Shown: positions 4,431 through 21,471, counted from the first letter of the stretch. The stretch: 64,000 nucleotides of DNA from Prochlorococcus sp. AG-409-F19 (GCA_003215795.1 QCJV01000005.1:1-64000); one strand, 5' to 3'. Made by a program: numbers and translations. The notes: a model not told the origin generated them from the sequence alone.

Positions 4431-4961
4431 CAGCAATATTTTATAGATCAAACTGGAGTTTTAATTAAAGAGATGCATTATATTAAGTCTCCTGAAGATG
4501 TTACTTTAGAATTAGGAATAATAGAATTACTCCAGTTATCTGAGATTAGTAAAAGGCCTGTATTTATAGTTGCTAATCACTCTGAAATTTCACAAGAAAA
4601 GATTAGACTACCAAAATGTTACTTCTAGGATGATTGATTTAATAGGTAAGAACACCTCTATTAATGCCATTTATGCATACAGCTCACTAGACATCACTAA
4701 GTGTAATTGGAGAAAAGCTAATCCAGCATGTTAGAAGAAGCAGCCTATAATTTAGGTGTGCATCTTTCTAAATCGATTATGGCAGCAGATAGGCCATCAG
4801 ATAAGCAGGCAGGTAGGAATGCCAATATAGAAAGTATTGTTCATGTGAGGACTGGTCAAGGAAATAACGAACGAGAAAATATGATAAAATATTTGAATAA
4901 ATCTACCCTATCTTTAGATGGAACTACCAGTTCTAGGTTCTTTAAATTGACAATTTCTTGA
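4431..4961 (+). pseudogene. gmhB: Decayed D-glycero-D-manno-heptose-1,7-bisphosphate phosphatase (GmhB/HisB-N type)
   Basis: Three collinear segments in two frames: QQYFIDQTGVLIKEMHYIKSPEDVTLELGIIELLQLSEISKRPVFIVANHSEIS (4431-), MIDLIGKNTSINAIYAYSSLDITKCNWRKANPA (4630-), MLEEAAYNLGVHLSKSIMAADRPSDKQAGRNANI (4728-). Confidence 0.75.
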
Positions 4962-4999: not shown

Positions 5000-6214
5000 G
5001 TGAATTTTGATGTTGTTATAATTGGTGGAGGGATGGTTGGCTTATCGCTTGCTAATCAGCTTATAGAAAGAAAAATCACTAACAATATCATAGTTCTAGA
5101 TAAAGAGAAAGAGCTAGGTAAGCATAGCTCAGGGCTTAATAGCGGAGTATTACATGCAGGGTTATATTATGAACCTGATTCACTTAAGGCGAGAGTTTGT
5201 GTCTCTGGGGCAACTAGACTAAAAAAATGGATTAAAGAAAGGAATCTTCCTATTAATGAATGTGGTAAAGTTATAGTCCCACAGAGGGAAGAGTTAGATA
5301 GTCAATTAGATATTCTTTACAACAGAGGAAAATCAAATGGCGCTAAGGTAGAGATGATAGATGAAAATGAGCTTAATAAGATTGCTCCTGAAGCCTTGTC
5401 TTCTTCTGGAAGAGCTTTGTGGAGCCCAAATACTGTTGTTGTTAAATCAAAATTAGTCCTTAATACGCTAGAGAATGAATTAATTCAGAAAAATGTAAAG
5501 ATTGTCCTTCATCAGAATAATTGGAAAGTTAATATAAGAAAAAGAATGATAACTCTGAATAATGGAGATGAAATAAATTATAGCCATTTAATAAATTGCG
5601 CTGGTCTTCAAGCCGATAAGGTAGCTAGGCTTTTTGGTGTAGGACGAAAGTACATCCTTTTCCCATTTAAGGGTTTATATTGGTCGCTTAAAAGAGATAG
5701 TAAAATAAGAATTAATACAAATGTTTATCCTGTTCCAGACTTAAATGTACCTTTCCTTGGAGTCCATTTTACACCAACGGCTGATGATAATCCTACAGTT
5801 AATATAGGTCCAACAGCTACTCCAGCATTAGGTAGAGAGAATTACAGAGGATTTGAATCGTTAGAATTTTTTAGCTCAATTAGAAATCTTTCTTTATTAG
5901 CCAATCAGTATCTATTGAACAAGGGAGGTTTTAGAAAGTATGTCCATGAACAGTATTTATTAACTTTCAAGCCAATCATGATTCAGTCTGCTCAACAACT
6001 TATTCCCAGAATACGATATGACGATGTAGAATTGAGTAACAAAGTTGGCATTAGATCCCAACTCTTTAACACTGAGACCCAAAGACTAGAAGATGATTTC
6101 TTATGTTTAGAAGGCCCGGATAGTACACATGTGATGAATGCGATATCTCCAGCTTTTACAGCAAGCTTCACTCTAGCAGATTTGATTATTGATAATATTA
6201 GATTTAACTTTTAG
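5000..6214 (+). CDS. FAD-dependent oxidoreductase, L-2-hydroxyglutarate oxidase (LhgO)-like
   Basis: N-terminal GGGMVGLSLANQL FAD motif, HSSGLNSGVLHAGLYYEPDSLKARVC; GTG start. Confidence 0.75.
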   Translation: MNFDVVIIGGGMVGLSLANQLIERKITNNIIVLDKEKELGKHSSGLNSGVLHAGLYYEPDSLKARVCVSGATRLKKWIKERNLPINECGKVIVPQREELDSQLDILYNRGKSNGAKVEMIDENELNKIAPEALSSSGRALWSPNTVVVKSKLVLNTLENELIQKNVKIVLHQNNWKVNIRKRMITLNNGDEINYSHLINCAGLQADKVARLFGVGRKYILFPFKGLYWSLKRDSKIRINTNVYPVPDLNVPFLGVHFTPTADDNPTVNIGPTATPALGRENYRGFESLEFFSSIRNLSLLANQYLLNKGGFRKYVHEQYLLTFKPIMIQSAQQLIPRIRYDDVELSNKVGIRSQLFNTETQRLEDDFLCLEGPDSTHVMNAISPAFTASFTLADLIIDNIRFNF

Positions 6215-6218
6215 ATTC

Positions 6219-6929
6219 ATGGCTCAAAAACTTAAGGCTATTCTTCTTGCAGCAGGTCTTGGCACAAGATTAAGACCATTAACACTGAAAACACCAAAAT
6301 GCTTAGTTGAAATTAACGGAAAGCCTCTATTGGCTTATTGGCTTTCAATGCTAGAAGACATAGGATGCGACGAAGTTATAATTAACACTCATTATTTAAA
6401 AGATCAGGTTGAAGCTTTTATTAATTCATGGAAATCAGAAAGTATGAATATAAAGCTATCCTATGAGAAAGAATTATTGGGTACAGCTGGAACACTTATT
6501 AAAAATATAGATTTTTTTAAAAACTCAACAGGTTTACTTATTCACGCCGATAATTTAACTGATGAAGATCTATCTAAATTCTTAGTCGCACATCAATCTA
6601 AGCCAAATTATTGCTTATTGACTATGCTCACATTTAAAACTGACAATCCTGCTCAATGTGGGATTGTTCAGAAGAATGAGCAGAATGTAGTCACCAACTT
6701 CTTTGAAAAAAGTAAGGGTTCTCACGGAAACCATGCCAATGGTGCTTTATATGCTTTTGACAAGGACTTTATTGAATATATAAAGAATCTTCCTTCGGGT
6801 ACAACTGATTTCAGTACCCAGATTATTCCTGAGCTTATGGGCAGGATATTTTCCTGGACTACTGAGAGATGCTATATTGACATTGGCACGCATTCTTCCC
6901 TAACAAAGGCCATTGAGCTTTGGAAGTAA
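6219..6929 (+). CDS. Nucleotidyltransferase, HddC-like (sugar-1-phosphate nucleotidylyltransferase)
   Basis: LKAILLAAGLGTRLRPLTLKTPKCLVEINGKPLL; ATG at 6219 preferred over the 6189 ORF start. Confidence 0.75.
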   Translation: MAQKLKAILLAAGLGTRLRPLTLKTPKCLVEINGKPLLAYWLSMLEDIGCDEVIINTHYLKDQVEAFINSWKSESMNIKLSYEKELLGTAGTLIKNIDFFKNSTGLLIHADNLTDEDLSKFLVAHQSKPNYCLLTMLTFKTDNPAQCGIVQKNEQNVVTNFFEKSKGSHGNHANGALYAFDKDFIEYIKNLPSGTTDFSTQIIPELMGRIFSWTTERCYIDIGTHSSLTKAIELWK

Positions 6930-7606
6930 ATTTAACTCCCAAGAAAGATTCCTATAATAGTTTAGATCAAAGCACCAAAATGCTTAGTAGTAATGGTGTT
7001 CCGGATACTTCTGTAGCTTTCGGTTCTTTTGTTGACAACTATATATCAAAATTACAATCATGTTTTACAGATGACCTGAAAGACAATATCAGGCAATTAT
7101 CAATTCACTTAAAGAGTGCATGGGTAAATGGCCAAAATGTTTTTATTTGTGGAAATGGAGGTAGTGCTGGAAATGCTATCCACATAGCCAATGATTTTCT
7201 TTACGGAGCAGGTGCTTGTGGATCTTCTCCTTCTTTACCAGGCTTAAGAGTAGAGGCTCTAACGGCAAACCCAGCAGTTCTAACTTGTTTGGCTAATGAC
7301 ACAGGTTATGAGAATATATTTGCTAATCAGCTGAAGGTTAAAGGTCAAAGAAATGATTTGTTGATTGCATTATCTGGAAGTGGAAAATCACAAAATATTG
7401 TCAATGCTCTGAAAATTGCCAAAGACTTAAGTATTAATTCATTTGCTATATTAGCTTTTGACGGAGGTGAGTGTAAGAAATTAGCAGATACCTCTATACA
7501 TTTTAAGACCTCAGATATGCAATTGGCAGAAGATGCTCAATTAATTGTTGGTCATTTGTGTATGCAATGGTTGTCAGATAACAAACCTGTAAAAATTAAT
7601 TCTTGA
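6920..7606 (+). CDS. SIS-domain phosphoheptose isomerase, GmhA-like
   Basis: NVFICGNGGSAGNAIHIANDF, LIALSGSGKSQNIVNAL; start uncertain (TTG 6920 or ATG 6980). Confidence 0.8.
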   Translation: MEVNLTPKKDSYNSLDQSTKMLSSNGVPDTSVAFGSFVDNYISKLQSCFTDDLKDNIRQLSIHLKSAWVNGQNVFICGNGGSAGNAIHIANDFLYGAGACGSSPSLPGLRVEALTANPAVLTCLANDTGYENIFANQLKVKGQRNDLLIALSGSGKSQNIVNALKIAKDLSINSFAILAFDGGECKKLADTSIHFKTSDMQLAEDAQLIVGHLCMQWLSDNKPVKINS

Positions 7607-8280
7607 CAATGAAAGAAGTAGATTTCATGAGTATTCTTCATAAGAGTACAGAACGAGATTATCTAAAAAGAGTTAATGATCAGGATTATCCAAAACACAA
7701 GGCAGCCACTTTAGCAAAAAAATTTGATTACGATTACTGGGATGGTGATAGAAGAATCTGCTTTGGTGGATATCATTATCTTGAGGGCAGGTGGGAGAAA
7801 GTAGCTAATAATATGGCTTCTTATTATTCACTTCCTGACAAGCCAAAGATCCTTGATATAGGTTGTGGCAAAGGATACCTTCTATATGACTTCCTAAAAG
7901 TTGTTCCAAATGCTGAGATCTATGGAATTGATATCTCACGCTATGCAATAGACAATTCTAAGCCTGAGATTAAAGATAGATTATTTGTAGGTAATGCAGT
8001 TGATTTGCCATATGAAGATAATTTTTTTGATTTGGTTATTTCTATCAATACTCTTCATTGTCTTGAATCTTATGATCTCAATAATGCTTTAAGAGAAATG
8101 GAGAGAGTTGGTAAGCATCAAAAGTATCTTTGCGTAGAAAGTTATAGGAATGAAATTGAAAAAGCTAATCTATTATACTGGCAGGTTACATGTGAGGCCT
8201 TCAATACTCCTAAAGAATGGCTCTGGTGGTTTGCAATGACAGGCTACTCTGGTGACTATTCTTTTATTTACTTTGAATAG
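7603..8280 (+). CDS. Class I SAM-dependent methyltransferase
   Basis: ILDIGCGKGYLLYDF motif I, followed by DLPYEDNFFDLVISINTLHCL. Confidence 0.75.
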   Translation: MTMKEVDFMSILHKSTERDYLKRVNDQDYPKHKAATLAKKFDYDYWDGDRRICFGGYHYLEGRWEKVANNMASYYSLPDKPKILDIGCGKGYLLYDFLKVVPNAEIYGIDISRYAIDNSKPEIKDRLFVGNAVDLPYEDNFFDLVISINTLHCLESYDLNNALREMERVGKHQKYLCVESYRNEIEKANLLYWQVTCEAFNTPKEWLWWFAMTGYSGDYSFIYFE

Positions 8281-8286
8281 AATTTT

Positions 8287-9339
8287 ATGAAATATAGACC
8301 TAAAACAGTAAAAGCTGCAATTTTAGTTGAGCAAAATCACCCTTTGGTTGTTGAAGAAATTAATTTACCGAATGAGCTTCTGGTTGGTCAGGTTTTGGTG
8401 AAAGTTGAATTAAGTGGGATTTGTGGATCGCAATTAGGAGAAATAAATGGAGTTAAGGGTCCGGATAATTACTTGCCTCATTTAATGGGCCATGAAGGAT
8501 GTGGCAAAGTCTTAGATATTGGACCAGGTGTTAAGACTGTAGATGTTGGAGATAAAGTTGTGATGCATTGGAGAAAAGGAGCTGGCATTCAATCTGCCCC
8601 TCCTATCTATACATTGAACAGTAAAAAGGTTAATGCTGGTTGGGTCACAACATTCAACACGCATGCGATCATCAGTGAGAATCGTTGTACAAGGGTATCA
8701 AATTCAATGAGTCCTGAACTGGCGTCTTTATTTGGATGTGCTATCACTACTGGATTTGGTGTGGTTGAAAATAATGCAAAAATTAAGATGGGAGAATCTC
8801 TAGTTGTTTTTGGGGCTGGTGGAGTAGGCTTAAATATTATTCAAGCTGCTTCACTATATTCGGCTTTTCCTATAATTGCAGTTGATATAGTTGATAAAAG
8901 GCTCGAATTAGCACGAAAATTAGGAGCTGACATTACATTTAATAGTCAAAAATGTGATATTGAACATGAGATTAAAGATTTTTTAAAAGATACCAAGCTT
9001 AACGTTTTCATTGATAATACTGGAATTCCCAGAATCATTGAGATGGGTTACCGACTACTGGATTCTGAAGGCCGCCTAGTTCTTGTTGGGGTCCCTAAGA
9101 AAGGTTCTAATATAAATATATATAGCTTGCCTTTGCATTTTGGAAAAACTATAACTGGTTCTCATGGTGGTGAATGTAGGCCAGAAATTGATATTCATAG
9201 ATACTCTAGACTATTTAAAAATAAAAATGCATGCTATAAAGAATTGATTACCGAACGATTTCAGTTGGAAAATATTAATGACGCAATAACTTCGATGAAG
9301 GATGGTAAATCTGCGGGCCGTATCTTAATTGAGATGTAA
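8287..9339 (+). CDS. Zinc-binding alcohol dehydrogenase family protein
   Basis: ELSGICGSQLGE, LMGHEGCGKV, VVFGAGGVGLNIIQAA. Confidence 0.8.
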   Translation: MKYRPKTVKAAILVEQNHPLVVEEINLPNELLVGQVLVKVELSGICGSQLGEINGVKGPDNYLPHLMGHEGCGKVLDIGPGVKTVDVGDKVVMHWRKGAGIQSAPPIYTLNSKKVNAGWVTTFNTHAIISENRCTRVSNSMSPELASLFGCAITTGFGVVENNAKIKMGESLVVFGAGGVGLNIIQAASLYSAFPIIAVDIVDKRLELARKLGADITFNSQKCDIEHEIKDFLKDTKLNVFIDNTGIPRIIEMGYRLLDSEGRLVLVGVPKKGSNINIYSLPLHFGKTITGSHGGECRPEIDIHRYSRLFKNKNACYKELITERFQLENINDAITSMKDGKSAGRILIEM

Positions 9340-9342
9340 ACA

Positions 9343-10845
9343 ATGGCAAAGATCTACTCTTTTGATGAAATTGAAAATATACCAAAAGGTGCGGTTTTAG
9401 CTTATGGTCATTTTACTACGATTCATGCTGGTCATATAAGATATTTAAAGTATGCTAAAGAGTTAGGTTCTCACTTAACTGTGGCCCTTTTAAATGACCA
9501 GTTAAATCAGACTAAGAATGGAAGATATGCTTTTAATCAATTAGAGAGGGCTGAAGCCCTTAACCTGCTTTCAATTTCTGATTCTATATTATTAATGAAG
9601 GATGATGATCTTGAATCTGTAACAGAGAAGTTAAATCCAAAAACCTTGATTCTAGGTAAAGAATTTGAAAATACAAGTGATGAAAATATTGTTAATGCAA
9701 TAAATATTCAGAAATCGAATAAGAGAGAAGTGCAATTTCATGCTGGTGACATTCATTATGCAAATGCTGATTTATTAATTAACTCAGAAAGTGAACTATC
9801 TCTTTCAAGGCGAAAGTTGTTTCGTGAAACATGTAATAGAGAGGGTATAAAATATGAAAAGCTACTAGAGTTTATAGATTCTTGGAACAATACTCATTTA
9901 TTGGTAATTGGTGATACAATAGTTGATCAATATGCAGCTTGCGAACCAATAGGGTTAAGTGCGGAAGCTCCTGTTGTAGTAGTTAAGGAACTTAAGCAAA
10001 GAGATTTCATAGGAGGTGCTGCAATTGTTGCTTCCCATATAAGATCTTTAGGTGCTAAGTGCACTTTCTTGTCTGTAACTGGTAAAGATGATGTTGCGAA
10101 AATTGTTTCTAAGGAGTTGGATAAAAGAGATATAAAGTTTCATTTATTGGCTGATGACTCTAGACCAACTACTTTTAAAAAAAGATACTTAGTAGAAAAT
10201 CAGAAACTATTTAGAGTAAGTAGATTAGAAGATCACAAAATAGATAGTGAAATTGAAAATAAATTGATTAATCTATTACATGAATTGGCCCCATCTACTA
10301 ATGGCATAGTTATCTCTGATTTTGTTTATGGAGTTTTGACTGAAAAAATAATTGATGAAATCATTTCCCTTTCAAAGCAACATAATTTGATGGTTTTTGG
10401 TGATTTACAGTGCAGTAGTCAGGTCGGCGACATAACTAAATTTAAAGGCTTTTCACTTTTGTGTCCTAATGAGCGAGAGTCGCGCCTAGCTCTTAGAGAT
10501 CATGAATCAGGACTTGAAAAGCTTAGTCAAAAACTAATCTCGATTACCTCAACAGATAGACTTGTAATGAAGCTGGGACCAGATGGTTTTATTGTTTATG
10601 ACACCACGGCTGGGAAAATTAAAACCCAGTCTTTCCCTGCTTTATCCGTTAACCCATTAGATGTTGCTGGTGCAGGAGACTCTTTGCTTGCGGCTATGGC
10701 TACAGGCCTTTCTAGTGGTCAGTCTATGATCAGTAGTGCTGCAATTGCATGCTGTATGGCTTCTATTGCTGTAGAAACGATGGGTAATTCACCCATTTCT
10801 AAAACCACTCTATTGTTAAAGCTTACTGATGTCTTCAAGACTTAA
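9343..10845 (+). CDS. Fused nucleotidylyltransferase (N-terminal) / PfkB kinase (C-terminal), HldE/RfaE-like with reversed domain order
   Basis: N-terminal GHFTTIHAGHIRYLKYAKELG; C-terminal LLVIGDTIVDQYAACEPIGLSAEAPVVVVKE ... NPLDVAGAGDSLLAAMATGL. Confidence 0.8.
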   Translation: MAKIYSFDEIENIPKGAVLAYGHFTTIHAGHIRYLKYAKELGSHLTVALLNDQLNQTKNGRYAFNQLERAEALNLLSISDSILLMKDDDLESVTEKLNPKTLILGKEFENTSDENIVNAINIQKSNKREVQFHAGDIHYANADLLINSESELSLSRRKLFRETCNREGIKYEKLLEFIDSWNNTHLLVIGDTIVDQYAACEPIGLSAEAPVVVVKELKQRDFIGGAAIVASHIRSLGAKCTFLSVTGKDDVAKIVSKELDKRDIKFHLLADDSRPTTFKKRYLVENQKLFRVSRLEDHKIDSEIENKLINLLHELAPSTNGIVISDFVYGVLTEKIIDEIISLSKQHNLMVFGDLQCSSQVGDITKFKGFSLLCPNERESRLALRDHESGLEKLSQKLISITSTDRLVMKLGPDGFIVYDTTAGKIKTQSFPALSVNPLDVAGAGDSLLAAMATGLSSGQSMISSAAIACCMASIAVETMGNSPISKTTLLLKLTDVFKT

Positions 10846-11872
10846 CCTACAAAATAAAAGATTCCTTGTTATAGGCAGTAATAGTTTCAGTGGATCCCAC
10901 TTTGTTAATGGATTAATTAATTCATCCTGCAATGTTGTTGGTATTAGTAGGTCTAGTCAACCAAATGTTGAGTTTTTACCTTACTTATGGAGTAAGAGTG
11001 AAAATGAGAAAGAGAATCTTTCAGATGGAAATTTATTTAACTTCTATCAATATAATCTAAATACGCAATTGAAAGAAATAATGAATGTTATTGATGACTT
11101 TCAGCCTTCATATATCGTTAACTTTGCAGCGCAAGGGATGGTCGCACAAAGTTGGTTAAACCCTACCCATTGGTATAAAACTAATGTCGTTTCACAAGTA
11201 GCATTACATGATGAATTAAGGAAAAAGAAATTTATTAAGAAATACGTTCATGTAACAACACCTGAAGTTTATGGAAGCACAGATTTAGGTTGGATAAAAG
11301 AAAATTATAATTTTGCTCCAAGTACACCATATGCTGTAAGTAGAGCAGCTTGTGATCTTCATCTACTTAGTTTTTTTAAAGCATATGATTTTCCTGTTGT
11401 TTTTACTAGAGCGGCTAATGTGTATGGACCTGGACAGCAGCTTTATAGAATAATACCAAGAACATTATTGAGTGCACTTACTAATCAAAAGATGGAACTT
11501 CATGGAGCTGGAATATCAGAGAGATCTTTTATATATATCAAAGATGTAGTTGATGCTACTATTCAAATTGCTATTGATGCTGAGCCTGGAACAACCTGGC
11601 ATATTTCAACTAAAGAAGCATTATCTATTAGAAATCTTGTTGAAAATATTATCTCCCAAGTTGGTTCTGATTTTGATCAGATTGTTGAAGTAGGGAAAGA
11701 ACGGCTAGGTAAAGATCAAAATTATCTTTTGGATAGTTCTAAATTGAGACAGAAATTTAATTGGAAAGAAAATTATACTTTGAAAGAAGGTATTTCTCTA
11801 ACTATGGATTGGGTAAGAAGTAATCTGATATTATTTGAAAAGTTGCCCTGGAGTTATCAGCACAAGCTATGA
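10829..11872 (+). CDS. NAD-dependent epimerase/dehydratase (4,6-dehydratase-like)
   Basis: TTPEVYGS, TPYAVSRAACD, RAANVYGPGQQLYRIIPR. Confidence 0.75.
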   Translation: MSSRLNLQNKRFLVIGSNSFSGSHFVNGLINSSCNVVGISRSSQPNVEFLPYLWSKSENEKENLSDGNLFNFYQYNLNTQLKEIMNVIDDFQPSYIVNFAAQGMVAQSWLNPTHWYKTNVVSQVALHDELRKKKFIKKYVHVTTPEVYGSTDLGWIKENYNFAPSTPYAVSRAACDLHLLSFFKAYDFPVVFTRAANVYGPGQQLYRIIPRTLLSALTNQKMELHGAGISERSFIYIKDVVDATIQIAIDAEPGTTWHISTKEALSIRNLVENIISQVGSDFDQIVEVGKERLGKDQNYLLDSSKLRQKFNWKENYTLKEGISLTMDWVRSNLILFEKLPWSYQHKL

Positions 11873-12807
11873 AGATTTTAGTTACCGGAGGTTGTGGTTA
11901 TAAAGGCTCTGTGTTAATCCCCCTTCTTTTAAAAGATGGTCATGAGGTTACATCAATAGATACTCAGTGGTTTGGTAATTATTTGCCAAAGCATCAAAAT
12001 TTCACAAATATAAAAATGGATATCAGGGACATAGATAATATTCCTTTAGAAGGAAAGGAAGTTGTAATTCATTTAGCGAATATTGCAAATGACCCTGCCG
12101 TTGAATTAAATCCAACTCTTAGCTGGGAAGTAAATGTTCTTGCAGGTCAGCAATTAATTGAGCAGTCAAAAAGATTAGGTGTCAAACAATTTATTTTTGC
12201 AAGTTCAGGAAGTGTATATGGTGTTAAAGAAGAACTTAATGTCACAGAAGATCTTGAATTAGTTCCTATTTCTGTTTATAATAAAACAAAGATGGTAGCG
12301 GAAAGAGTATTCCTATCCTATAGAGAGGATATGCAAGTTCATTGCATTAGGCCAGCTACCGTTTGTGGCCTATCCCCTAGAATGAGATTAGATGTAAGCG
12401 TAAATATGTTTACTTATCAAGCACTAAAAAATAGTAAAATGACGGTTTTTGGAGGCTTGCAAACTAGACCAAATATTCATATAAAGGATATAGCCAATAT
12501 ATATAGACATTTTATAGCAAATAGGAATATAGAATCAGGCTGCTATAATGCTGGCTTTGAGAATATATCTATTTTGGATATTGCCAAAATGATTCAAAAA
12601 AAAGTTTCCTCAGAAATTATTATTTCTGAGTCAAATGACCCTAGATCTTATAGGCAGGATTCAACTAAATTACTTAATACAGGTTTTCAGCCTCAGTATT
12701 CAGTCCAGTCTGCAATAGATGAAATCACTGAAGCTTATAGAAATTCAAATCTTCCTGATTCTGATAATTGTTATACAGTTAAATGGATGAAGACTTTGAA
12801 CTTGTGA
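11869..12807 (+). CDS. NAD-dependent epimerase/dehydratase
   Basis: KILVTGGCGYKGSVLIPLLL, ASSGSVYG, YNKTK. Confidence 0.8.
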   Translation: MKILVTGGCGYKGSVLIPLLLKDGHEVTSIDTQWFGNYLPKHQNFTNIKMDIRDIDNIPLEGKEVVIHLANIANDPAVELNPTLSWEVNVLAGQQLIEQSKRLGVKQFIFASSGSVYGVKEELNVTEDLELVPISVYNKTKMVAERVFLSYREDMQVHCIRPATVCGLSPRMRLDVSVNMFTYQALKNSKMTVFGGLQTRPNIHIKDIANIYRHFIANRNIESGCYNAGFENISILDIAKMIQKKVSSEIIISESNDPRSYRQDSTKLLNTGFQPQYSVQSAIDEITEAYRNSNLPDSDNCYTVKWMKTLNL

Positions 12808-12835: not shown

Positions 12836-13843
12836 ATGGATATAAAAGACAAAACCAAATTAGACTTAGCTCTAGATAAAGAGATACTGTTCAATATTTA
12901 TTATGTTATGAGAAGAATCCGTGCTGTAGAAGAAAAGATAGTTGAGGAGTATCCGAAAAAACAAATCAGATGCCCAACTCATCTTTCTATTGGTCAAGAA
13001 GGAGTTCCCGCAGCTTTAGCGCAAGTTGTAACAAAGCATGACTATGCAATAAGTACTCATAGAGGCCATGCTCATTATCTTGCAAAGGGGGGTGACTTGG
13101 ACAAAATGATTGCTGAGTTATATGGCAAAGAATGTGGCTGCTCTAAAGGTAAAGGAGGATCGATGCATCTAATTGATGTCGAGCAAGGCTTTATGGGAAC
13201 TTCAGCAATTGTTGGTAATAGCATCCCTTTAGGAGTTGGATTGGCTTTGTCTTTAGAACTTAAAGGCTTAAAAAACATTTCCTGTATTTTCTTAGGAGAT
13301 GGAGCTATCGAAGAAGGATCATTTTATGAATCATTAAACTTTGCTGTTTTACGAAAATTACCAACACTTTTTATTTGTGAGAATAACTTATACTCTGTAT
13401 ATAGTCCTCTAGATGTAAGACAACCTATAGATAGGCAGATTCATACAATAGCTGAGGCTGTTGGAGCAAAAACAGCTTGTTGTGACGGCAATAATGTAAT
13501 TGATTCATATGAAACTTTAAATACGATTTGTCAGGAGATTCGGTCTGGCTCTGGGCCATGGTTTGTTGAATTTGAAACTTATAGATGGAGAGAACATTGT
13601 GGTTATAATTATGATAATGACATTGGTTATAGGACAGAAGAAGAGTATGAAACGTGGAAAAGAAGGGATCCTATAAAAACTTTTGTTGATTATTTAAAAA
13701 ATAACTACTCTATTGAGGTTGTAAATAAGTTGGAACAGATCGATCAAAATATTTTTAAGGAAGTTGAAGAGGCTTTTGAAAAAGCTAAGAAAGCTTCATA
13801 CCCTGATCCCAGTCATGCTTATACTTCAATATACTGCCAATAA
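12836..13843 (+). CDS. Thiamine-diphosphate dehydrogenase E1 alpha-like subunit
   Basis: YRGH-type segment STHRGHAHYLAKGGD, ThDP motif GDGAIEEGSFYESLNFAVLRKLPTLFICENN. Confidence 0.85.
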   Translation: MDIKDKTKLDLALDKEILFNIYYVMRRIRAVEEKIVEEYPKKQIRCPTHLSIGQEGVPAALAQVVTKHDYAISTHRGHAHYLAKGGDLDKMIAELYGKECGCSKGKGGSMHLIDVEQGFMGTSAIVGNSIPLGVGLALSLELKGLKNISCIFLGDGAIEEGSFYESLNFAVLRKLPTLFICENNLYSVYSPLDVRQPIDRQIHTIAEAVGAKTACCDGNNVIDSYETLNTICQEIRSGSGPWFVEFETYRWREHCGYNYDNDIGYRTEEEYETWKRRDPIKTFVDYLKNNYSIEVVNKLEQIDQNIFKEVEEAFEKAKKASYPDPSHAYTSIYCQ

Positions 13844-13855
13844 TATTCTTTTGAT

Positions 13856-14911
13856 ATGACAAAGATAACCTTTGGCAAAGCTATTAATTCAGCTATTGAC
13901 CAAGCAATGGCATTAGATAAATCTGTAATTTGTTATGGTTTAGGAGCTACTGATCCAAAGGGCATTTTTGGAACAACACTTGGATTAGAAAAGAAATATG
14001 GAAAAAAAAGAGTCTTTGATATGCCTACTTCTGAAAATGCAATGACAGGAGTCGGTATTGGGGCCTCTATGGTAGGAATTAAACCTGTAATGACTCATCA
14101 AAGGCTTGATTTCTTTCTACTTGCTCTTGACCAATTAGTTAATGGGGCAGCAAAAATGCATTATATGTTTGGCGGCACAGTAAATATTCCAATTACTATA
14201 AGACTTATTCTTGGCAGAGGATGGGGACAGGGACCTACACATTCTCAGAATCTCCAAGCTTGGTTTGCCCATATCCCGGGGTTGAAGGTTGTAATGCCTA
14301 GTTCTCCTGAAGATGCAAAGGGATTGTTGATAAGTTCTATTTTTGATCCAAATCCAGTTGTCTTCTTAGAACATCGATGGCTTCATAATACTGTTGGTGA
14401 AGTTCCTGATAATGATTTCAGAATAGAAATAGGAACCTCAAAAAAACTAGTAGATGGTAATGATATAACAATTGTATCTATGTCTTACCTGACAATTGAG
14501 GCTCAAATTGCAGAGAAATATTTGCGGAAAAATGGAGTATCAGTTGACTTAATTGACTTAAGGTCAATTAAGCCGATTGATATGAAGGCTATAAGTGAAT
14601 CCTTAAAAAAAACAGGTAAAATATTAGTATTAGATACTGGATTTACGACTTGCTCTGTATCTTCAGATATTATATCTAGAGTTTTAATAAATAACTTTGA
14701 ATTCCTTACCCATCCACCAGCTCAAATTGCAATGCCTGATGTCCCTGAGCCAACAAGTTTTGGATTAACTAAAAGTTTTTACAAGAGAGCTGCTGATATA
14801 GCAAAAAAAGTCTTAGACATGATGGGAATTGACTCACTAGACCCTTTTAATGATTTACCTCCTCCAGCCCCCCATGATGTTCCAGGTGATTGGTTTAAGG
14901 GACCTTTTTAG
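13856..14911 (+). CDS. Transketolase-like E1 beta subunit partner
   Basis: DMPTSENAMTGVGIGASMVGIKPVM; immediately follows the E1 alpha-like gene. Confidence 0.85.
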   Translation: MTKITFGKAINSAIDQAMALDKSVICYGLGATDPKGIFGTTLGLEKKYGKKRVFDMPTSENAMTGVGIGASMVGIKPVMTHQRLDFFLLALDQLVNGAAKMHYMFGGTVNIPITIRLILGRGWGQGPTHSQNLQAWFAHIPGLKVVMPSSPEDAKGLLISSIFDPNPVVFLEHRWLHNTVGEVPDNDFRIEIGTSKKLVDGNDITIVSMSYLTIEAQIAEKYLRKNGVSVDLIDLRSIKPIDMKAISESLKKTGKILVLDTGFTTCSVSSDIISRVLINNFEFLTHPPAQIAMPDVPEPTSFGLTKSFYKRAADIAKKVLDMMGIDSLDPFNDLPPPAPHDVPGDWFKGPF

Positions 14912-14946
14912 CAATACTTATCAATAAAGGGATGATTCCTTAAATT

Positions 14947-15207
14947 ATGCTTACCAATTATTCTTTAACTGTTTTAGTCCGAGCTCATATAATACCGACA
15001 CATTAATTAGAGCATTAGGCTCAGTATCTAAACAGACAATATCCAAAGAAATAGAAGTTATAATTTCAGCTGATTGTTCTCCAAAAGCAATATCTAGAGA
15101 AAAGGTTTAGGACTTTAATTCTTCTTTTAAGAAATTAAAATTTCATACCCAACAAGTTAATCTTTTAATATTCTTGAACCCTGCTTGCCCATATAATACT
15201 GTATAAC
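14947..15207 (+). pseudogene. Decayed family 2 glycosyltransferase, N-terminal fragment
   Basis: MLTNYSLTVLVRAH then frameshift to NTDTLIRALGSVSKQTISKEIEVIISADCSPKAISREKV, in-frame stop at 15108-15110. Confidence 0.6.
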
Positions 15208-15214
15208 AGCTTAT

Positions 15215-15535
15215 TATATATTTTTGTAGTAGGATTTTTAAGGCTATGAAAATATCTGTACGAAAGGTTTCTAACTCAATTAGCTGAAAATAGAAATCTA
15301 AATGAGATTTATAATTTTGGCCCTGCTAAACCAATAAAAATGCCTAATATTATAGAATATGGAAAACAAACATTAAACTCAATACTATAGAGCTCATATA
15401 TTGACATCCTATTATTTGAAAAGACAATGTAAAACAACGATTTTTGGATGAATTTGAACAAATTATTTTCTTTTGGATTTGAACCTCGCTACACTATTAA
15501 GCAAATAATCGAGGATTTTGCATTTGATTAGGTAT
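15215..15535 (+). pseudogene. Decayed SDR, probably CDP-glucose 4,6-dehydratase (RfbG-like), C-terminal part
   Basis: YLYERFLTQLAENRNLNEIYNFGPAKPIKMPNIIEYGKQTLNSIL* and NLNKLFSFGFEPRYTIKQIIEDFAFD*; interrupted frames, directly upstream of rfbH. Confidence 0.5.
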
Positions 15536-15624
15536 TTATTGGTCAGATTTGAAGCAAGCTATTTTTGGCTTATAATGAGAAAGGTCTTGGATCAAAAAAT
15601 TATTACTAATACAACGTTGGAATT

Positions 15625-16947
15625 ATGTCAATAAATAACTTAGTTGATGACTTCCTTGAGTCATTAGATCCCACTAATGAGGATCTTTTCTCATATCTTG
15701 CGAATAAGGGATGGAGCAATGGAGATCCAATATATTACTCAGGTCCTTATTGGGACCAAAAGGAAATATCAGCAGCCATAGGATCTTTGCTAAATGCAAA
15801 GTGGCTTTCATCTGGAGAGCAAGTTAATAAATTTGAAGTTGAATTTTCTAGAAAGTTTGAGTTTAAAAGCTCTCTTATGGTCAATTCAGGCTCTTCTGCA
15901 AATCTTGTTATGATTGCAGCTTTAAAAGAATATTTTGAGTGGGATGACTATGATGAAATTATTGTTTGTGCATGTGGTTTTCCTACTACAATAAACCCTA
16001 TATTACAGAATAAATTAAAACCTGTTTTTGTAGACATTGATTTTGACGATCTTAATTGGTCTTTAGATGAATTGGAAAAAAAAATAACAAATAGAACTAA
16101 AGCATTATTTTCTTCACCAGTTTTGGGTAATCCATATGATATGGATAAATTATTTGAAATTATTAATCAGTATAAGATTCATTATATAGCAGATAATTGT
16201 GATAGTCTTGGTAGTAAATGGAAAGGGGATTACCTGACAAAGAACTCTGTAGCCTCTTCGTGTTCTTTTTATCCTGCCCATCATATAACTACAATTGAAG
16301 GAGGCATGGTTTCTTCTAATATTCCGGAGGTTATTAGTCTGGCTAGGAGTTTTGCTTGGTGGGGAAGAGCTTGTTATTGTGTAGGCGCTCAGAATAAATT
16401 ATCAAATGGTGTTTGTGGTAAAAGGTTTAGTAAATGGTTACAAAATTACGACAGAGAGATAGATCACAAATATGTATTTAGTGTGCAAGGATATAACCTT
16501 AAGCCCATAGATATGCTTGGCGCAATAGGCTTAGTTCAACTTAGTAAATACGATCATATACATCGTATTAGAAGACAAAACAAAGATAAACTTAGTGATA
16601 TATTTGAAAAAATACCTGGATTACGAGTTGTCAAGGAAAAAACTAATGCAGAAACTTCATGGTTTGGGGTCCCCATTGTGTGTGATGATGATGACCCAAA
16701 ATCTACGCTAAAGTCTCAATTGGTTCAGTTTTTAGAAGAGAATAAACTTCAAACTAGAAATTATTTTGCTGGTAATATCCTTAAACACCCAGCTTATAAA
16801 GGGATGGAAGATCCCAATGATTTTCCAAATGCATCTAAAGTTCTTGATAATGTTTTCTTCGTAGGATGTTCACCAGTAATTACAGAAGCAATGATTGATA
16901 GAATTGAGGAAATAGTCGATAATTTTGTTATAAACCTAAGTAATTAG
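15625..16947 (+). CDS. rfbH: RfbH-type (E1) PMP/[2Fe-2S]-dependent 3-dehydrase
   Basis: DegT fold; active-site Lys replaced by His in SFYPAHHITTIEGG; cysteines at C-X57-C-X1-C-X11-C (DNCDS ... RACYC ... VCGKRF). Confidence 0.88.
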   Translation: MSINNLVDDFLESLDPTNEDLFSYLANKGWSNGDPIYYSGPYWDQKEISAAIGSLLNAKWLSSGEQVNKFEVEFSRKFEFKSSLMVNSGSSANLVMIAALKEYFEWDDYDEIIVCACGFPTTINPILQNKLKPVFVDIDFDDLNWSLDELEKKITNRTKALFSSPVLGNPYDMDKLFEIINQYKIHYIADNCDSLGSKWKGDYLTKNSVASSCSFYPAHHITTIEGGMVSSNIPEVISLARSFAWWGRACYCVGAQNKLSNGVCGKRFSKWLQNYDREIDHKYVFSVQGYNLKPIDMLGAIGLVQLSKYDHIHRIRRQNKDKLSDIFEKIPGLRVVKEKTNAETSWFGVPIVCDDDDPKSTLKSQLVQFLEENKLQTRNYFAGNILKHPAYKGMEDPNDFPNASKVLDNVFFVGCSPVITEAMIDRIEEIVDNFVINLSN

Positions 16948-16959
16948 AAATAACTGATT

Positions 16960-17754
16960 TCAACTGTTATTTAAATTTCTTCTTAGCCTATAAAAATCTT
17001 TATCTTTTTCAAAAAGTCTTCTTAGGTTTTCTTCAGTTAGTATGTCGTAAACAGAAGAAAAGTTTCTCCCCCCAACTAGTTCTTTTGGGAGAGATATTAA
17101 TGAATATATATCGTCCAAGACTTTTTCAATTGTGTTGAGCTTCTGGGGGGAGTTCAGCATATTTATAGTTTTCTTATAATTCATTCCAGCATTGGCTTTT
17201 GCTTTTAAAGTAGCAGCATGGATTTTTGTTTTAACCCAACCAGGGCCTAATATTGTGCATTTTAAATCTTCTATCTCATAGTCTATTAGTTCTACTGCTT
17301 TAATTAAAGCTATTTTACCTAGAGTTTGAGCAGAATATGCCGGCGTTGCATTATTAGTACCACCCCCTGCAAAGAATATTGCATTAGAGGTGAAATTCTT
17401 TTTCCTGTAAGGTAAAGCTTTCATTAAAGCAGCTATTTGATTAGTAGAGTTATTAGTTACACCTTCGACCCAATCTTTTGGATCTAAATCTTCAATTCTT
17501 CCAACGGGTTCTTGAGTTCCTATGCAAGATATAAATAATTCCCATGTAGAAATCTCAGACAGCCAATTTGTAAATGTAGTTGAGTTGAAATCTTTTATAT
17601 TTAACTTTATTAAATTTTGCTCTGGAAGGATACTTCTGTTTGGTTTGGTTGTATTATATGTCCCAAAAACATTGTAACCTTTATTTGCTAGAGATTCTAC
17701 AAGCCTTGCTCCAATATCTGAAGTGGCAGAAAGGACAATTGCGTTCATTAACAC
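16960..17754 (-). CDS. SDR-family oxidoreductase
   Basis: AIVLSATSDIGARLVESLANKGYNVFGTYN; SCIGTQEPVG; GPGWVKTKIHAATL. Confidence 0.7.
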   Translation of the reverse strand: MLMNAIVLSATSDIGARLVESLANKGYNVFGTYNTTKPNRSILPEQNLIKLNIKDFNSTTFTNWLSEISTWELFISCIGTQEPVGRIEDLDPKDWVEGVTNNSTNQIAALMKALPYRKKNFTSNAIFFAGGGTNNATPAYSAQTLGKIALIKAVELIDYEIEDLKCTILGPGWVKTKIHAATLKAKANAGMNYKKTINMLNSPQKLNTIEKVLDDIYSLISLPKELVGGRNFSSVYDILTEENLRRLFEKDKDFYRLRRNLNNS

Positions 17755-17862
17755 TTAATTTCTACCATTCATTGATTTTCCCAGAATCTGCAATTTTATG
17801 CAAGTATTGAAAGTTGAATTTTATGTTATATTATAATTAGAAAAATAATAATTCATTGATAT

Positions 17863-18651
17863 ATGTCTAAAACACACCCGGGCTTGGATATCGTCAGCAA
17901 TTTCTATACAAGCGATAAGTCTGAATCAATAAGAAAACTTTTTGATAAAGGTTATATTATAATTAAAAATAATATCTCTTTTGCAAAATGTGAGGAGTTA
18001 ATTACTAGCTTGAATGGTATTCGAAATAAATATCCTTATCATATAGAAAGTAGCAATACATATGCAGGAGTATTTAGAAGTCCTTTTATATTCTTTAATA
18101 GTTATAGGGATCTTATGCTTAATAGTATAATTCATTCTCATTTGAAGGAAATATTTCCTTGTAAATATCAATTACACTTAAATAGATGTGTAGAGAATAA
18201 GCCAAATAAAATAGCAGCAACTGTAGAATGGCATAGAGATATCCCTTATATTCATACACCCAATTCATACCCCCTAAGCATTAGTGCTTTAACATTTTTA
18301 AGTCCATCTAAAGCTACTCAGATAGAGTTATTGCTAGATTCTCACATAAAGCACTTTTATTCTTTGGGAGATGCTGATGTATTAAGTCTCAATCCAAAAC
18401 CAGGAGATACAATATTATTTGATTCTAATTTGATACATAGGACCCTCCCGACTGTTTCCAGTGTTTATTATAATTTATATATGTTTAGTAGTCCAATTAT
18501 TAAACCAGTTGTTGATTACTCATCAGAATCAGTTAAGAAATTAATTTCTAGTATTCCTTATAGGCTCGAAGAAGTTTTTAAGCTTATAGGTTATGAATTC
18601 TTAGTTCCAAGGGATGACCTTGAGTATATGAATAATAAACAGAATACATAA
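17863..18651 (+). CDS. Phytanoyl-CoA dioxygenase-like Fe(II)/2OG protein
   Basis: EWHRDIPYIH (HxD) and PGDTILFDSNLIHRTLP (distal His). Confidence 0.6.
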   Translation: MSKTHPGLDIVSNFYTSDKSESIRKLFDKGYIIIKNNISFAKCEELITSLNGIRNKYPYHIESSNTYAGVFRSPFIFFNSYRDLMLNSIIHSHLKEIFPCKYQLHLNRCVENKPNKIAATVEWHRDIPYIHTPNSYPLSISALTFLSPSKATQIELLLDSHIKHFYSLGDADVLSLNPKPGDTILFDSNLIHRTLPTVSSVYYNLYMFSSPIIKPVVDYSSESVKKLISSIPYRLEEVFKLIGYEFLVPRDDLEYMNNKQNT

Positions 18652-18775
18652 ATATTATATATACTCATTTACTTCTTTATAACAGGCTTTTCCTCAGATT
18701 CTTTTAAACTCAAAGCAGATTTTTTATCGTAGGTGGTGACTTTTCCTTTGACGAAGTTTTCATGCTATATTAAAG

Positions 18776-19678
18776 ATGAGAAATTTCTTATTTAGTTTGG
18801 ATTTTCAATTAATTAATTCTGAAGAGGATATTTTATCTTCGTTAATATCATTACTTCCCTTAATACCAAGGGATCATAGACCTGATTCGTATATATATAA
18901 ATATCTTTCGGGATTAGCCTCCTATGCTTCTTCAAGCCTTTTTAGCCCAAAAGGGAAGCAAAAAGCAAGTTTAGGTCTTTTGGGAGAGGTTAAACTTCCA
19001 TTCTTCTCCATGGGAGCCATCAATTCAACTCACCTTTTTGGATTAGATGAACTTATCCTGTTTAGTTTTTATGCAAATAATGTCTCTAGATACAATAAAG
19101 TTGCCGACTTAGGAGCCAATATAGGTTTACATTCAATTGTCTTATCTAAATTAGGATACGCAGTGACCTCATATGAACCAGATGAATTACATGTCAAGAA
19201 AATAGAAGAAAATATTCTATTAAATGGCATTGTTAATAATAAGCCATTAATCTTAAACAAGGCTATCTCAAATACTAAAGGCTCTGTAGAATTTGTAAGG
19301 GTAAAAGGAAATACAACAGGAAGTCATATCTCAGGAGCAAAAGATTCTCCGTTTGGCGAATTAGATAAGTTTTCAGTTTACACCGACTGTTTTCACGAAA
19401 TAATATCTAACTTTGATTTTCTAAAAATTGATGTAGAAGGTCATGAAGCTACCATACTTTTGGAAACTAGTTCTGATCATTGGCGTAATACAGATGCAAT
19501 GGTCGAAGTAGGTACAGAAACTAATGCGGCAATGATCTTTAATCATTTTAATTCAATAAATATTAATTTATTTGCCCAAAAGATAGGTTGGAATAATGTT
19601 ACAACTATCGAGGATATGCCTACCTCTTATAAAGAAGGCTCTTTATTTATTACTAATAAAGTAAGTGTACCGTGGTAG
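18776..19678 (+). CDS. FkbM-family methyltransferase
   Basis: ADLGANIGLHSIVLSKLGYAVTSYEPDELHVKKIEENI ... FDFLKIDVEGHEATIL. Confidence 0.8.
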   Translation: MRNFLFSLDFQLINSEEDILSSLISLLPLIPRDHRPDSYIYKYLSGLASYASSSLFSPKGKQKASLGLLGEVKLPFFSMGAINSTHLFGLDELILFSFYANNVSRYNKVADLGANIGLHSIVLSKLGYAVTSYEPDELHVKKIEENILLNGIVNNKPLILNKAISNTKGSVEFVRVKGNTTGSHISGAKDSPFGELDKFSVYTDCFHEIISNFDFLKIDVEGHEATILLETSSDHWRNTDAMVEVGTETNAAMIFNHFNSININLFAQKIGWNNVTTIEDMPTSYKEGSLFITNKVSVPW

Positions 19679-21471
19679 AAAAAATAAAACTTTCTGATTA
19701 TGTAGCTGACTTTATAGCAAAGCTTGATGTCAGGACTGTATTTGCGATTTCTGGTGGAGCCTCTCTTCACTTGATACATTCATTAGCAGCTCATAAAGAT
19801 CTCGAATATGTCTGTACACATCATGAGCAGGCAGCGGCAATGGCAGCAGATGGCTACTCACGATCTACTGGAAATATTGGAGTAGCTATTGCTACTAGTG
19901 GTCCGGGGGCAACTAATTTACTAACAGGGATCTGTTGTAGTTATTACGATTCAGTTCCAATATTAGTCTTAACTGGTCAAGTTAGCACCTTTCGAATGGC
20001 TGGTCAGACTGGAGTTAGACAGATCGGCTTTCAGGAAACACCAATAACATCAATTGCTAGTGACATAACAAAATATTGTATTACTATAAAGGACCCTAAT
20101 AAAATTAGATATGAGTTAGAAAAAGCAGTACATATAGCTTTTTCTGATAGACCAGGACCAGTACTTGTTGACATCCCAGATAATTTACAAAGAGAATATA
20201 TTGATCCAAATTCTTTAGAACCGTTTATTTTCATAGACAAAAGTAAATCTAAACATTACAGCTCTATTAGCCAGGTTGAGGAGAAAATATGGGAATTATT
20301 GGATCAATCAAAAAGGCCAGTTGCGGTAGCTGGTTGGGGAGTCCATTTAAGTAAAACAGAGAGTGATTTCTTGTCTTTTGTTAATAAGTTAAAGATTCCA
20401 GTTGCATTAACCTGGGGGGGGGCAGACCTTATCCCGCACAATCACGAACTATATATTGGCACTTTTGGTACACATGGGATGCGCCACGCAAATTTTGCGG
20501 TTCAAAATGCTGATTTAATATTATCTGTTGGCTCTAGACTCGATACCAAGTCCACAGGGTCGCCAATTAATACTTTCGCAAGAGAAGCTAAAAAAATTAT
20601 AGTGGACATCGATCATTCAGAATTAGGTAAATTTAGTCAATTTGGTTTGGACATTGACCTATTAGTAGAAGAAGACTTGAGAATTTTCTTTAAGAGGATG
20701 AGCTTACGCTTATTAGAAAAAAATCAATGTGATACTAAGGAATGGTTAGAGAAAATTGTATTTTGGAGAAAAAGCTTTACTGCTTCCACCTCTGTTCCTA
20801 ACAATAAATCTATTGATCCTTATAACCTCTTTAAGTCCATTCCAGAACTTCTAGATACTGATAGTACAGTTTTTATTGATACAGGATGTTCAATAGCTTG
20901 GGCTATGCAGTCAATGAACTTAAGAGAAGGACAAAGGATTTATCATGATTTTAATAATACAGCTATGGGTTGGTCTTTACCAGCAGCTATTGGAGGTTAT
21001 TTTTCAAAACAAAGTAAGCAAATCGTTTGTATTATTGGCGATGGGAGCTTGATGATGACAATACAAGAACTCGCCACCATAATGCATCATAATATTCCTC
21101 TAAAGATAATTTTAATTAATAATTCTGGCTATTCCATGATCAAGCAAACACAAGATCAGTGGCTTTCTTCTAATTATATCGCATCTTCTAAAAAAGGAGG
21201 CCTATCATTCCCGAACTTTGCTTTAATAGCAGAAGCATATGATATCAAATATTTCATATTAGAAAAATCAGAAGATACTTACAATACTCTTAGCAACTTT
21301 TTAAGTTTATCTAGAAGTGCAATGGTAAATATAGTAATTCCTCCAGAAGCACGAGTAAACCCTCAAGTAAAATATGGACGGCCAAATGAAGATATGGAAC
21401 CTCTTTTACCAAGAGATCAGTTTTTGAAAAATATGATTATTGAGCCTCTTCCAGTTTCAAAAAATATTTAA
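19672..21471 (+). CDS. Thiamine-diphosphate enzyme, acetolactate-synthase-like
   Basis: HHEQAAAMAADGYSRSTGNIGVAIATSGPGATNLLTGI; GDGSLMMTIQELATIMHHNIPLKIILINNSGYSMIKQTQ. Confidence 0.88.
   Translation: MVEKIKLSDYVADFIAKLDVRTVFAISGGASLHLIHSLAAHKDLEYVCTHHEQAAAMAADGYSRSTGNIGVAIATSGPGATNLLTGICCSYYDSVPILVLTGQVSTFRMAGQTGVRQIGFQETPITSIASDITKYCITIKDPNKIRYELEKAVHIAFSDRPGPVLVDIPDNLQREYIDPNSLEPFIFIDKSKSKHYSSISQVEEKIWELLDQSKRPVAVAGWGVHLSKTESDFLSFVNKLKIPVALTWGGADLIPHNHELYIGTFGTHGMRHANFAVQNADLILSVGSRLDTKSTGSPINTFAREAKKIIVDIDHSELGKFSQFGLDIDLLVEEDLRIFFKRMSLRLLEKNQCDTKEWLEKIVFWRKSFTASTSVPNNKSIDPYNLFKSIPELLDTDSTVFIDTGCSIAWAMQSMNLREGQRIYHDFNNTAMGWSLPAAIGGYFSKQSKQIVCIIGDGSLMMTIQELATIMHHNIPLKIILINNSGYSMIKQTQDQWLSSNYIASSKKGGLSFPNFALIAEAYDIKYFILEKSEDTYNTLSNFLSLSRSAMVNIVIPPEARVNPQVKYGRPNEDMEPLLPRDQFLKNMIIEPLPVSKNI

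Follow-up and report, generated by a model that had tools for sequence, protein, structure and literature searches.

Two classes of thiamine diphosphate (ThDP) enzymes, the YerE-like lyases and the alpha-KADH2 pairs, can each branch keto-sugars using pyruvate (PMC12247030; PMC4753412). According to a 2025 review, the former belong mainly to lipopolysaccharide (LPS) and the latter mainly to antibiotics, and the known fates of the acetyl branches are reduction or transamination (PMC12247030). The subject of the present analysis is a stretch of 64,000 nucleotides from Prochlorococcus sp. AG-409-F19 (GCA_003215795.1, QCJV01000005.1:1-64000; ‘the window’), in which one polysaccharide island holds both a YerE-like gene and a pair of genes for E1 alpha- and E1 beta-like subunits. 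Neither kind of enzyme is new in itself; what seems to be new is that YerE-like lyases and alpha-KADH2 pairs share a single surface-sugar operon, and do so in different phyla. A literature search, with subscription papers (including an in silico survey cited in PMC12247030) outside its scope, found no report of an E1/YerE-linked module.

The initial annotation had described the island as an E1 alpha/beta pair without E2 or E3 partners, an RfbH-type 3-dehydrase and a separate acetolactate synthase-like enzyme, which together would make C-branched dideoxysugars. The genes concerned are all open and intact at the coordinates listed here, and domain searches with Pfam and NCBIfam bear out their names (E1_dh, Transket_pyr/Transketolase_C, DegT, and three TPP_enzyme domains). 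As for the island as a whole, the YerE-like identity of the one enzyme and the distinctness of the E1 pair from pyruvate dehydrogenase E1 are supported, and the proposed route through RfbH and a CDP-3,6-dideoxyhexose is not. Kinship to loci of named Prochlorococcus is in keeping with a picocyanobacterial origin. The genes from the E1 pair onward are as follows (genomes, contigs and loci are cited by our G, C and L numbers).

12836-13843, plus strand: E1 alpha-like ThDP subunit, polysaccharide-associated family (335 aa; PF00676; EH[CV]G signature)
13856-14911, plus strand: E1 beta-like ThDP subunit (351 aa; Transket_pyr/Transketolase_C; DPKGIFGTT motif; C-terminal GPF)
15265-15516, plus strand: epimerase relic with two in-frame stops (tblastn with Prochlorococcus epimerases from G435 and G128)
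15625-16947, plus strand: RfbH-like 3-dehydrase of the pyridoxamine phosphate (PMP)/Fe-S type, an insertion relative to colinear loci (440 aa; His and Fe-S Cys)
16960-17754, minus strand: short-chain dehydrogenase/reductase (SDR) oxidoreductase, kept with the YerE-like gene; proposed branch ketoreductase (locus counts)
17863-18651, plus strand: PhyH-type Fe/2-oxoglutarate dioxygenase (PF05721; 59% to its counterpart in the G414 module)
18776-19678, plus strand: FkbM-type methyltransferase, proposed to act in O-methylation of the branch (PF05050; distance correlation with the YerE-like gene)
19672-21471, plus strand: YerE-like ThDP carboligase (599 aa; tree, residues, predicted fold)

A candidate relic of a family 2 glycosyltransferase in 14912-15264 was dropped, its Pfam score being just 14 bits (E=0.04).

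For the acetolactate synthase-like protein, phylogeny, acceptor-site residues and predicted fold agree with the earlier suggestion that it is YerE-like rather than a copy of IlvB. In a tree of 64 proteins (like the other trees reported here, a quick search without bootstrap, in which some branches, such as those of JanthE, L041 and the window RfbH, are long), the 14 cyanobacterial IlvBs form one clade (99%), and the window protein falls within a YerE-like set that includes JanthE (100%), an enzyme that couples 2-oxo acids with ketones, and a cyanobacterial YerE-like protein linked to RfbF-G-H. JanthE is also its best solved relative by sequence (8rph, 321 bits, versus 286 for acetohydroxyacid synthase, AHAS) and the top match to its predicted structure (mean pLDDT 91; TM 0.95, versus 0.88 for AHAS). 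The protein shares with IlvB the three ThDP domains, the catalytic Glu (E52) and the GDG-NN motif (G456-D457-G458 and N483-N484), but it differs from it in clade and at the positions where a Trp and an Arg of AHAS recognise the second keto acid. The Trp of QWQ, invariant in 14/14 IlvBs, gives way to Thr in JanthE as well as in 27/27 module members; the Arg of FDDR, likewise invariant in 14/14, is replaced in 26 of the 27 (the window protein has W to T and R to K); and an inserted Arg, part of an Arg-Gln insertion in the window protein, is present in 46/46 YerE-like proteins and 0/14 IlvBs. A separate IlvB, 34% identical to the window protein, is encoded on contig C1 of the same genome. With the YerE-like lyases of branched LPS sugars (YerE, ErwE, JanthE) the protein thus has in common its fold, its clade, the loss of the AHAS acceptor residues and a surface-polysaccharide cluster setting with an SDR; it differs from them in having FkbM and the E1 pair as partner genes and in its subclade, which is a separate one linked to E1 rather than to RfbF/G/H and distinct from that of the tree's RfbFGH-linked YerE proteins (those of G032 and G078).

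The E1 pair, for its part, stands apart from the E1 component of pyruvate dehydrogenase (PDH), as had been proposed, both as a separate clade and by a family signature. In the E1 alpha tree, the PDH set (16 rows: 15 from cyanobacteria and one human) is separated with 100% support, and the window protein groups with proteins from polysaccharide loci; the signature EH[CV]G is found in 88/88 E1 alphas of the polysaccharide family and in 0/16 of the PDH set. A true PDH E1 alpha, 36% identical to that of the window, lies on contig C8 of the same genome. The stand-alone character of the pair was also upheld: the window region read contains neither an E2 nor an E3 gene, and a search of the genome as a whole gave no E2; contig C5 of this genome holds the window, and the assembly, at a total of 912 kb, is 54% complete, so that genome-wide absences are weak evidence. 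Relatives of the E1 beta occur in genome contigs from many phyla (>480), and each of the 80 that were kept has GPF or GPY at its C-terminus. In the picocyanobacteria G046 and G130 a single protein of ~685 aa combines both subunits (L035:12220-14277 and L177:15364-17430). The EHVG form of the signature is also present in E1 alphas of two Streptomyces plasmids, on one of which (from S. griseofuscus) the E1 beta has GPY as its last residues. In gene setting, the family resembles the alpha-KADH2 pairs (AviB1/AviB2, Pau11/Pau12, KbDH), which likewise consist of E1 alpha and beta without E2/E3, adjoin genes for nucleoside diphosphate (NDP)-sugars, and share with window-type loci reductase or aminotransferase partners; it differs from them in its occurrence in surface-polysaccharide operons of many phyla and not in antibiotic clusters.

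The association of the two enzymes was assessed in the gene-mapped loci of the best 80 of the >480 E1 beta relatives, in which flanks are often short. A YerE-like gene lies at most ~10 kb away in 34 of these loci, mostly in the order E1a-E1b-SDR-FkbM-YerE, and the SDR gene accompanies it closely (28/34 loci with a YerE-like gene, 0/46 without). The recurrent operon comprises genes for an epimerase, SIS protein, dehydratase, methyltransferase, E1a, E1b, SDR, FkbM, YerE-like enzyme, alcohol dehydrogenase, HldE-like protein and nucleotidyltransferase, and the set is spread over about a dozen phyla, among them Cyanobacteriota, Pseudomonadota, Bacteroidota, Campylobacterota, Actinomycetota, Elusimicrobiota, Omnitrophota and Bdellovibrionota. 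The 80 loci had been picked via E1, and the reverse association was therefore checked in 400 picocyanobacterial genomes. Five of them (representing five genera) encode a YerE-like protein with 50% identity or more, and in all five the E1 pair is on the same contig; the pair occurs in just 9/400 genomes, and an overlap of 5/5 would arise by chance with a probability of ~1.5e-9 if the two were independent. In two of the remaining four E1 genomes, a YerE-like gene that is less closely related lies near the pair; G130 has E1-SDR-FkbM with no YerE-like gene, and G176 carries the E1 cassette in an aminotransferase version. In this alternative cassette, found in 20/80 loci (L091, L125, L147 and 17 more), none of which has YerE, two tandem Lys-type, aminotransferase-like DegT genes replace the YerE sub-module, an arrangement that fits transamination of an acetyl branch, because transamination is, with reduction, one of the known branch fates. 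Judged by gene content and order, the E1 pair and the YerE-like enzyme belong together as a predicted surface-sugar module.

That this conserved module employs two ThDP carboligases in the service of one pathway is, on balance, probable, and the substrates, step order and product that we infer for it can be outlined as follows. The YerE-like enzyme would decarboxylate pyruvate or a similar 2-oxo acid on ThDP and transfer the acyl unit onto the keto group of an NDP-keto-sugar, which would yield a tertiary alcohol bearing an acetyl branch; the ketone of the branch would then be reduced by the SDR, and the new hydroxyl methylated by the FkbM enzyme. The E1 pair, acting without E2/E3, would carry out the same type of chemistry as alpha-KADH2 on antibiotic sugars, either elsewhere on this sugar or on a different one. 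RfbH, as a separate insertion, would not be needed. The product of the module is probably an acetyl- or hydroxyethyl-branched sugar. A more far-reaching proposal, offered here only tentatively, is that a pathway spread over many phyla applies two unrelated ThDP carboligases to one surface sugar, giving an undescribed monosaccharide with two added branches (or with one branch and a ThDP-built backbone).

The NDP-sugar would be supplied by the linked set of SIS, HldE-like, nucleotidyltransferase, dehydratase and epimerase genes, which lie in a cassette immediately upstream of the E1 pair.

4440-4901, plus strand: GmhB-like phosphatase pseudogene (tblastn 39% over 160 aa; stops; DxD replaced, catalytic Asp lost)
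5000-6214, plus strand: LhgO-like FAD oxidoreductase (PF01266; conserved in G046, G023, G054 and L087)
6189-6929, plus strand: sugar-1-phosphate nucleotidyltransferase (PF00483; PDB matches include a 6-deoxy-mannoheptose pathway enzyme)
6920-7606, plus strand: SIS isomerase, GmhA-like (top PDB matches are phosphoheptose isomerase)
7603-8280, plus strand: class I methyltransferase (domain search; family in 60/80 loci)
8287-9339, plus strand: zinc alcohol dehydrogenase (domain search; 51/80 loci)
9343-10845, plus strand: HldE-like nucleotidyltransferase-kinase with reversed domain order (domain search; 52/80 loci)
10829-11872, plus strand: NDP-sugar 4,6-dehydratase-like protein (top PDB match dTDP-glucose 4,6-dehydratase; 63/80 loci)
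11869-12807, plus strand: NDP-sugar epimerase-like protein (domain search; 66/80 loci)

Because GmhA-like, HldE-like and nucleotidyltransferase genes are present, the precursor is probably a heptose-type NDP-sugar rather than a CDP-3,6-dideoxyhexose. The GmhB-like gene is intact in L087 (the nearest colinear locus, from Prochlorococcus AH-716-K03) and in G046, and the L087 copy matches GmhB models. A second heptose-type cluster exists in the same genome (L038, G000:C7, 9421-14711), with genes for a nucleotidyltransferase, an epimerase, and GmhB-like, GHMP kinase-like and C-methyltransferase-like proteins; the intact haloacid dehalogenase (HAD) phosphatase on this contig C7 is GmhB-like by reading.

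If correct, the linkage would bring the two ThDP carboligase classes together in a surface-sugar operon of about a dozen phyla, abundant marine picoplankton among them, and would suggest that cell surfaces met by phages bear a sugar not yet described. The module family also offers many candidate ketone carboligases for biocatalysis, and it may account for surface-island genes whose labels refer to amino-acid metabolism, one example being the ‘acetolactate synthase’ annotated in hypervariable region HVR2 of SAR11 (PMC2217521).

Several observations weigh against a single pathway served by both carboligases. The distance of the YerE-like gene correlates well with that of FkbM (r=0.76) and with that of the SDR (r=0.50), and just weakly with that of E1b (r=0.29, p=0.0045), and because of this weak correlation YerE-SDR-FkbM is best described as a putative sub-module that joined E1 cassettes repeatedly; moreover, 46/80 E1 cassettes (their flanks often short) are without YerE. 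The E1 family was likened to alpha-KADH2 by its gene setting, not by sequence comparison, and the assignment of the cassette to heptose families relies on remote scores under the curated cut-offs. Finally, the GmhB-like gene of the window is a pseudogene, and the pathway may for that reason be impaired, or complemented from the contig C7 cluster.

The route originally favoured resembles that of yersiniose: RfbH would make CDP-4-keto-3,6-dideoxyglucose, to be branched by either of the ThDP enzymes or by both. The RfbH-like gene is indeed intact, and its product has in common with RfbH/DdhC (CDP-4-keto-6-deoxyglucose 3-dehydrase) the PMP-type catalytic His that replaces the Schiff-base Lys (SFYPAHH) and the four Fe-S cysteines (C192, C250, C252, C264). 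RfbH-YerE pairs occur in G032, in G078 and on many viral contigs, G046 has RfbF-G-H ~10 kb from its module, and a His-type dehydrase directly follows the E1 pair on two Azospirillum plasmids. The window protein nevertheless departs from RfbH/DdhC in a four-residue insert before the last cysteine and in a score of 363 bits with its best NCBIfam model (RfbH), under the equivalog cut-off of 423; it is also alone of RfbF-G-H, as neither RfbF nor RfbG was found above cut-off in the 54% complete genome, and its partner epimerase is broken. In L087 only 26 bp separate E1b from the reversed SDR gene, and RfbH is missing; the corresponding interval in the window is 2 kb and holds RfbH. A His-type RfbH is present in just 1/80 E1 loci, and the window YerE falls, as noted above, in another subclade than the RfbFGH-linked YerE. 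The relatives of the window RfbH (60-71% identity) are found in three other picocyanobacteria, beside none of which is E1 or YerE, and in two of the three an epimerase gene overlaps the start of RfbH. The relic upstream of the window gene corresponds to the last third of this partner epimerase (residues 184-267 of that of G435, tblastn E=1.5e-12; G128, E=1e-6). Because the partner survives as a pseudogene, and because the relatives lack E1 and YerE, RfbH most likely arrived together with its epimerase, in an independent unit that is now broken. Its absence from L087 and nearly all other loci, the pseudogene epimerase and the context of its relatives speak against it as a module member, and the postulated coupling to CDP-4-keto-3,6-dideoxyhexose is not supported; a yersiniose-like pathway is accordingly judged quite improbable. 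RfbF or RfbG near module loci, considered as possible support for a CDP-sugar, gave no clear difference (4/34 YerE loci versus 2/46 others); one such occurrence is followed by a C-methyltransferase-like gene.

A different division of labour, in which the YerE-like enzyme alone makes the branch and the E1 pair acts like 1-deoxyxylulose-5-phosphate synthase (DXS) or transketolase, building the precursor sugar from a two-carbon unit and a sugar-phosphate aldehyde, would agree with the linkage of the E1 pair to SIS, kinase and nucleotidyltransferase genes even where YerE is missing; the superfamily of the pair does include members with DXS-like chemistry. The aminotransferase-type cassettes, however, suit a branch ketone that is transaminated, and where stand-alone E1 pairs serve in sugar pathways, their nearest characterised role is to form branches at a ketone (PMC12247030); a DXS-like role is thus rather unlikely. 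That the genes are ordinary copies of PDH and acetolactate synthase from central metabolism, located in the island by chance, would be in keeping with their general annotation names and identical Pfam domains, but PDH E1 alpha and IlvB genes exist elsewhere in the genome, both trees set the window proteins apart and the AHAS acceptor residues are changed, so that this explanation has very little probability. Two carboligases joined in one surface-sugar module thus remain the preferred reading.

Related arrangements were encountered elsewhere. The initial annotation knew of no picocyanobacterial precedent for such sugars; the picocyanobacterium G032, however, has a classical, full RfbF-RfbG-RfbH-YerE-like block (L188, G032:C1, 8459-15421), its YerE belonging to the other subclade, together with a HAD phosphatase and an aldolase-like protein related (38%) to one in the viral locus L211. 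In G078 (L041, 6254-14420), RfbF-G-H and a YerE-like gene stand together with an acetylating acetaldehyde dehydrogenase and a 4-hydroxy-2-oxovalerate aldolase; the latter might provide a 2-oxo acid donor with a longer chain, such as ErwE prefers for erwiniose (PMC12247030). The Azospirillum plasmid loci (L079:11977-15207 and L081:9980-13333), where E1a-E1b is directly followed by a His-type DegT dehydrase, suggest that another lineage has joined an E1 pair to the 3-deoxygenation of a sugar.

YerE-like genes were also found on 45 viral contigs of IMG/VR (L192-L236), ~28 of which have a nearby RfbH-family gene, mostly His-type, and a dehydratase-like gene (for example L211:8004-12629, L205:8001-13141 and L198:5726-9746). 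Phages therefore seem to carry their own putative genes for branched dideoxysugars. L198 can be recognised as a T4-like phage because UvsX and Hsp20 are also present, and the viral YerE-like protein corresponds to phrog_11199, labelled ‘unknown function’.

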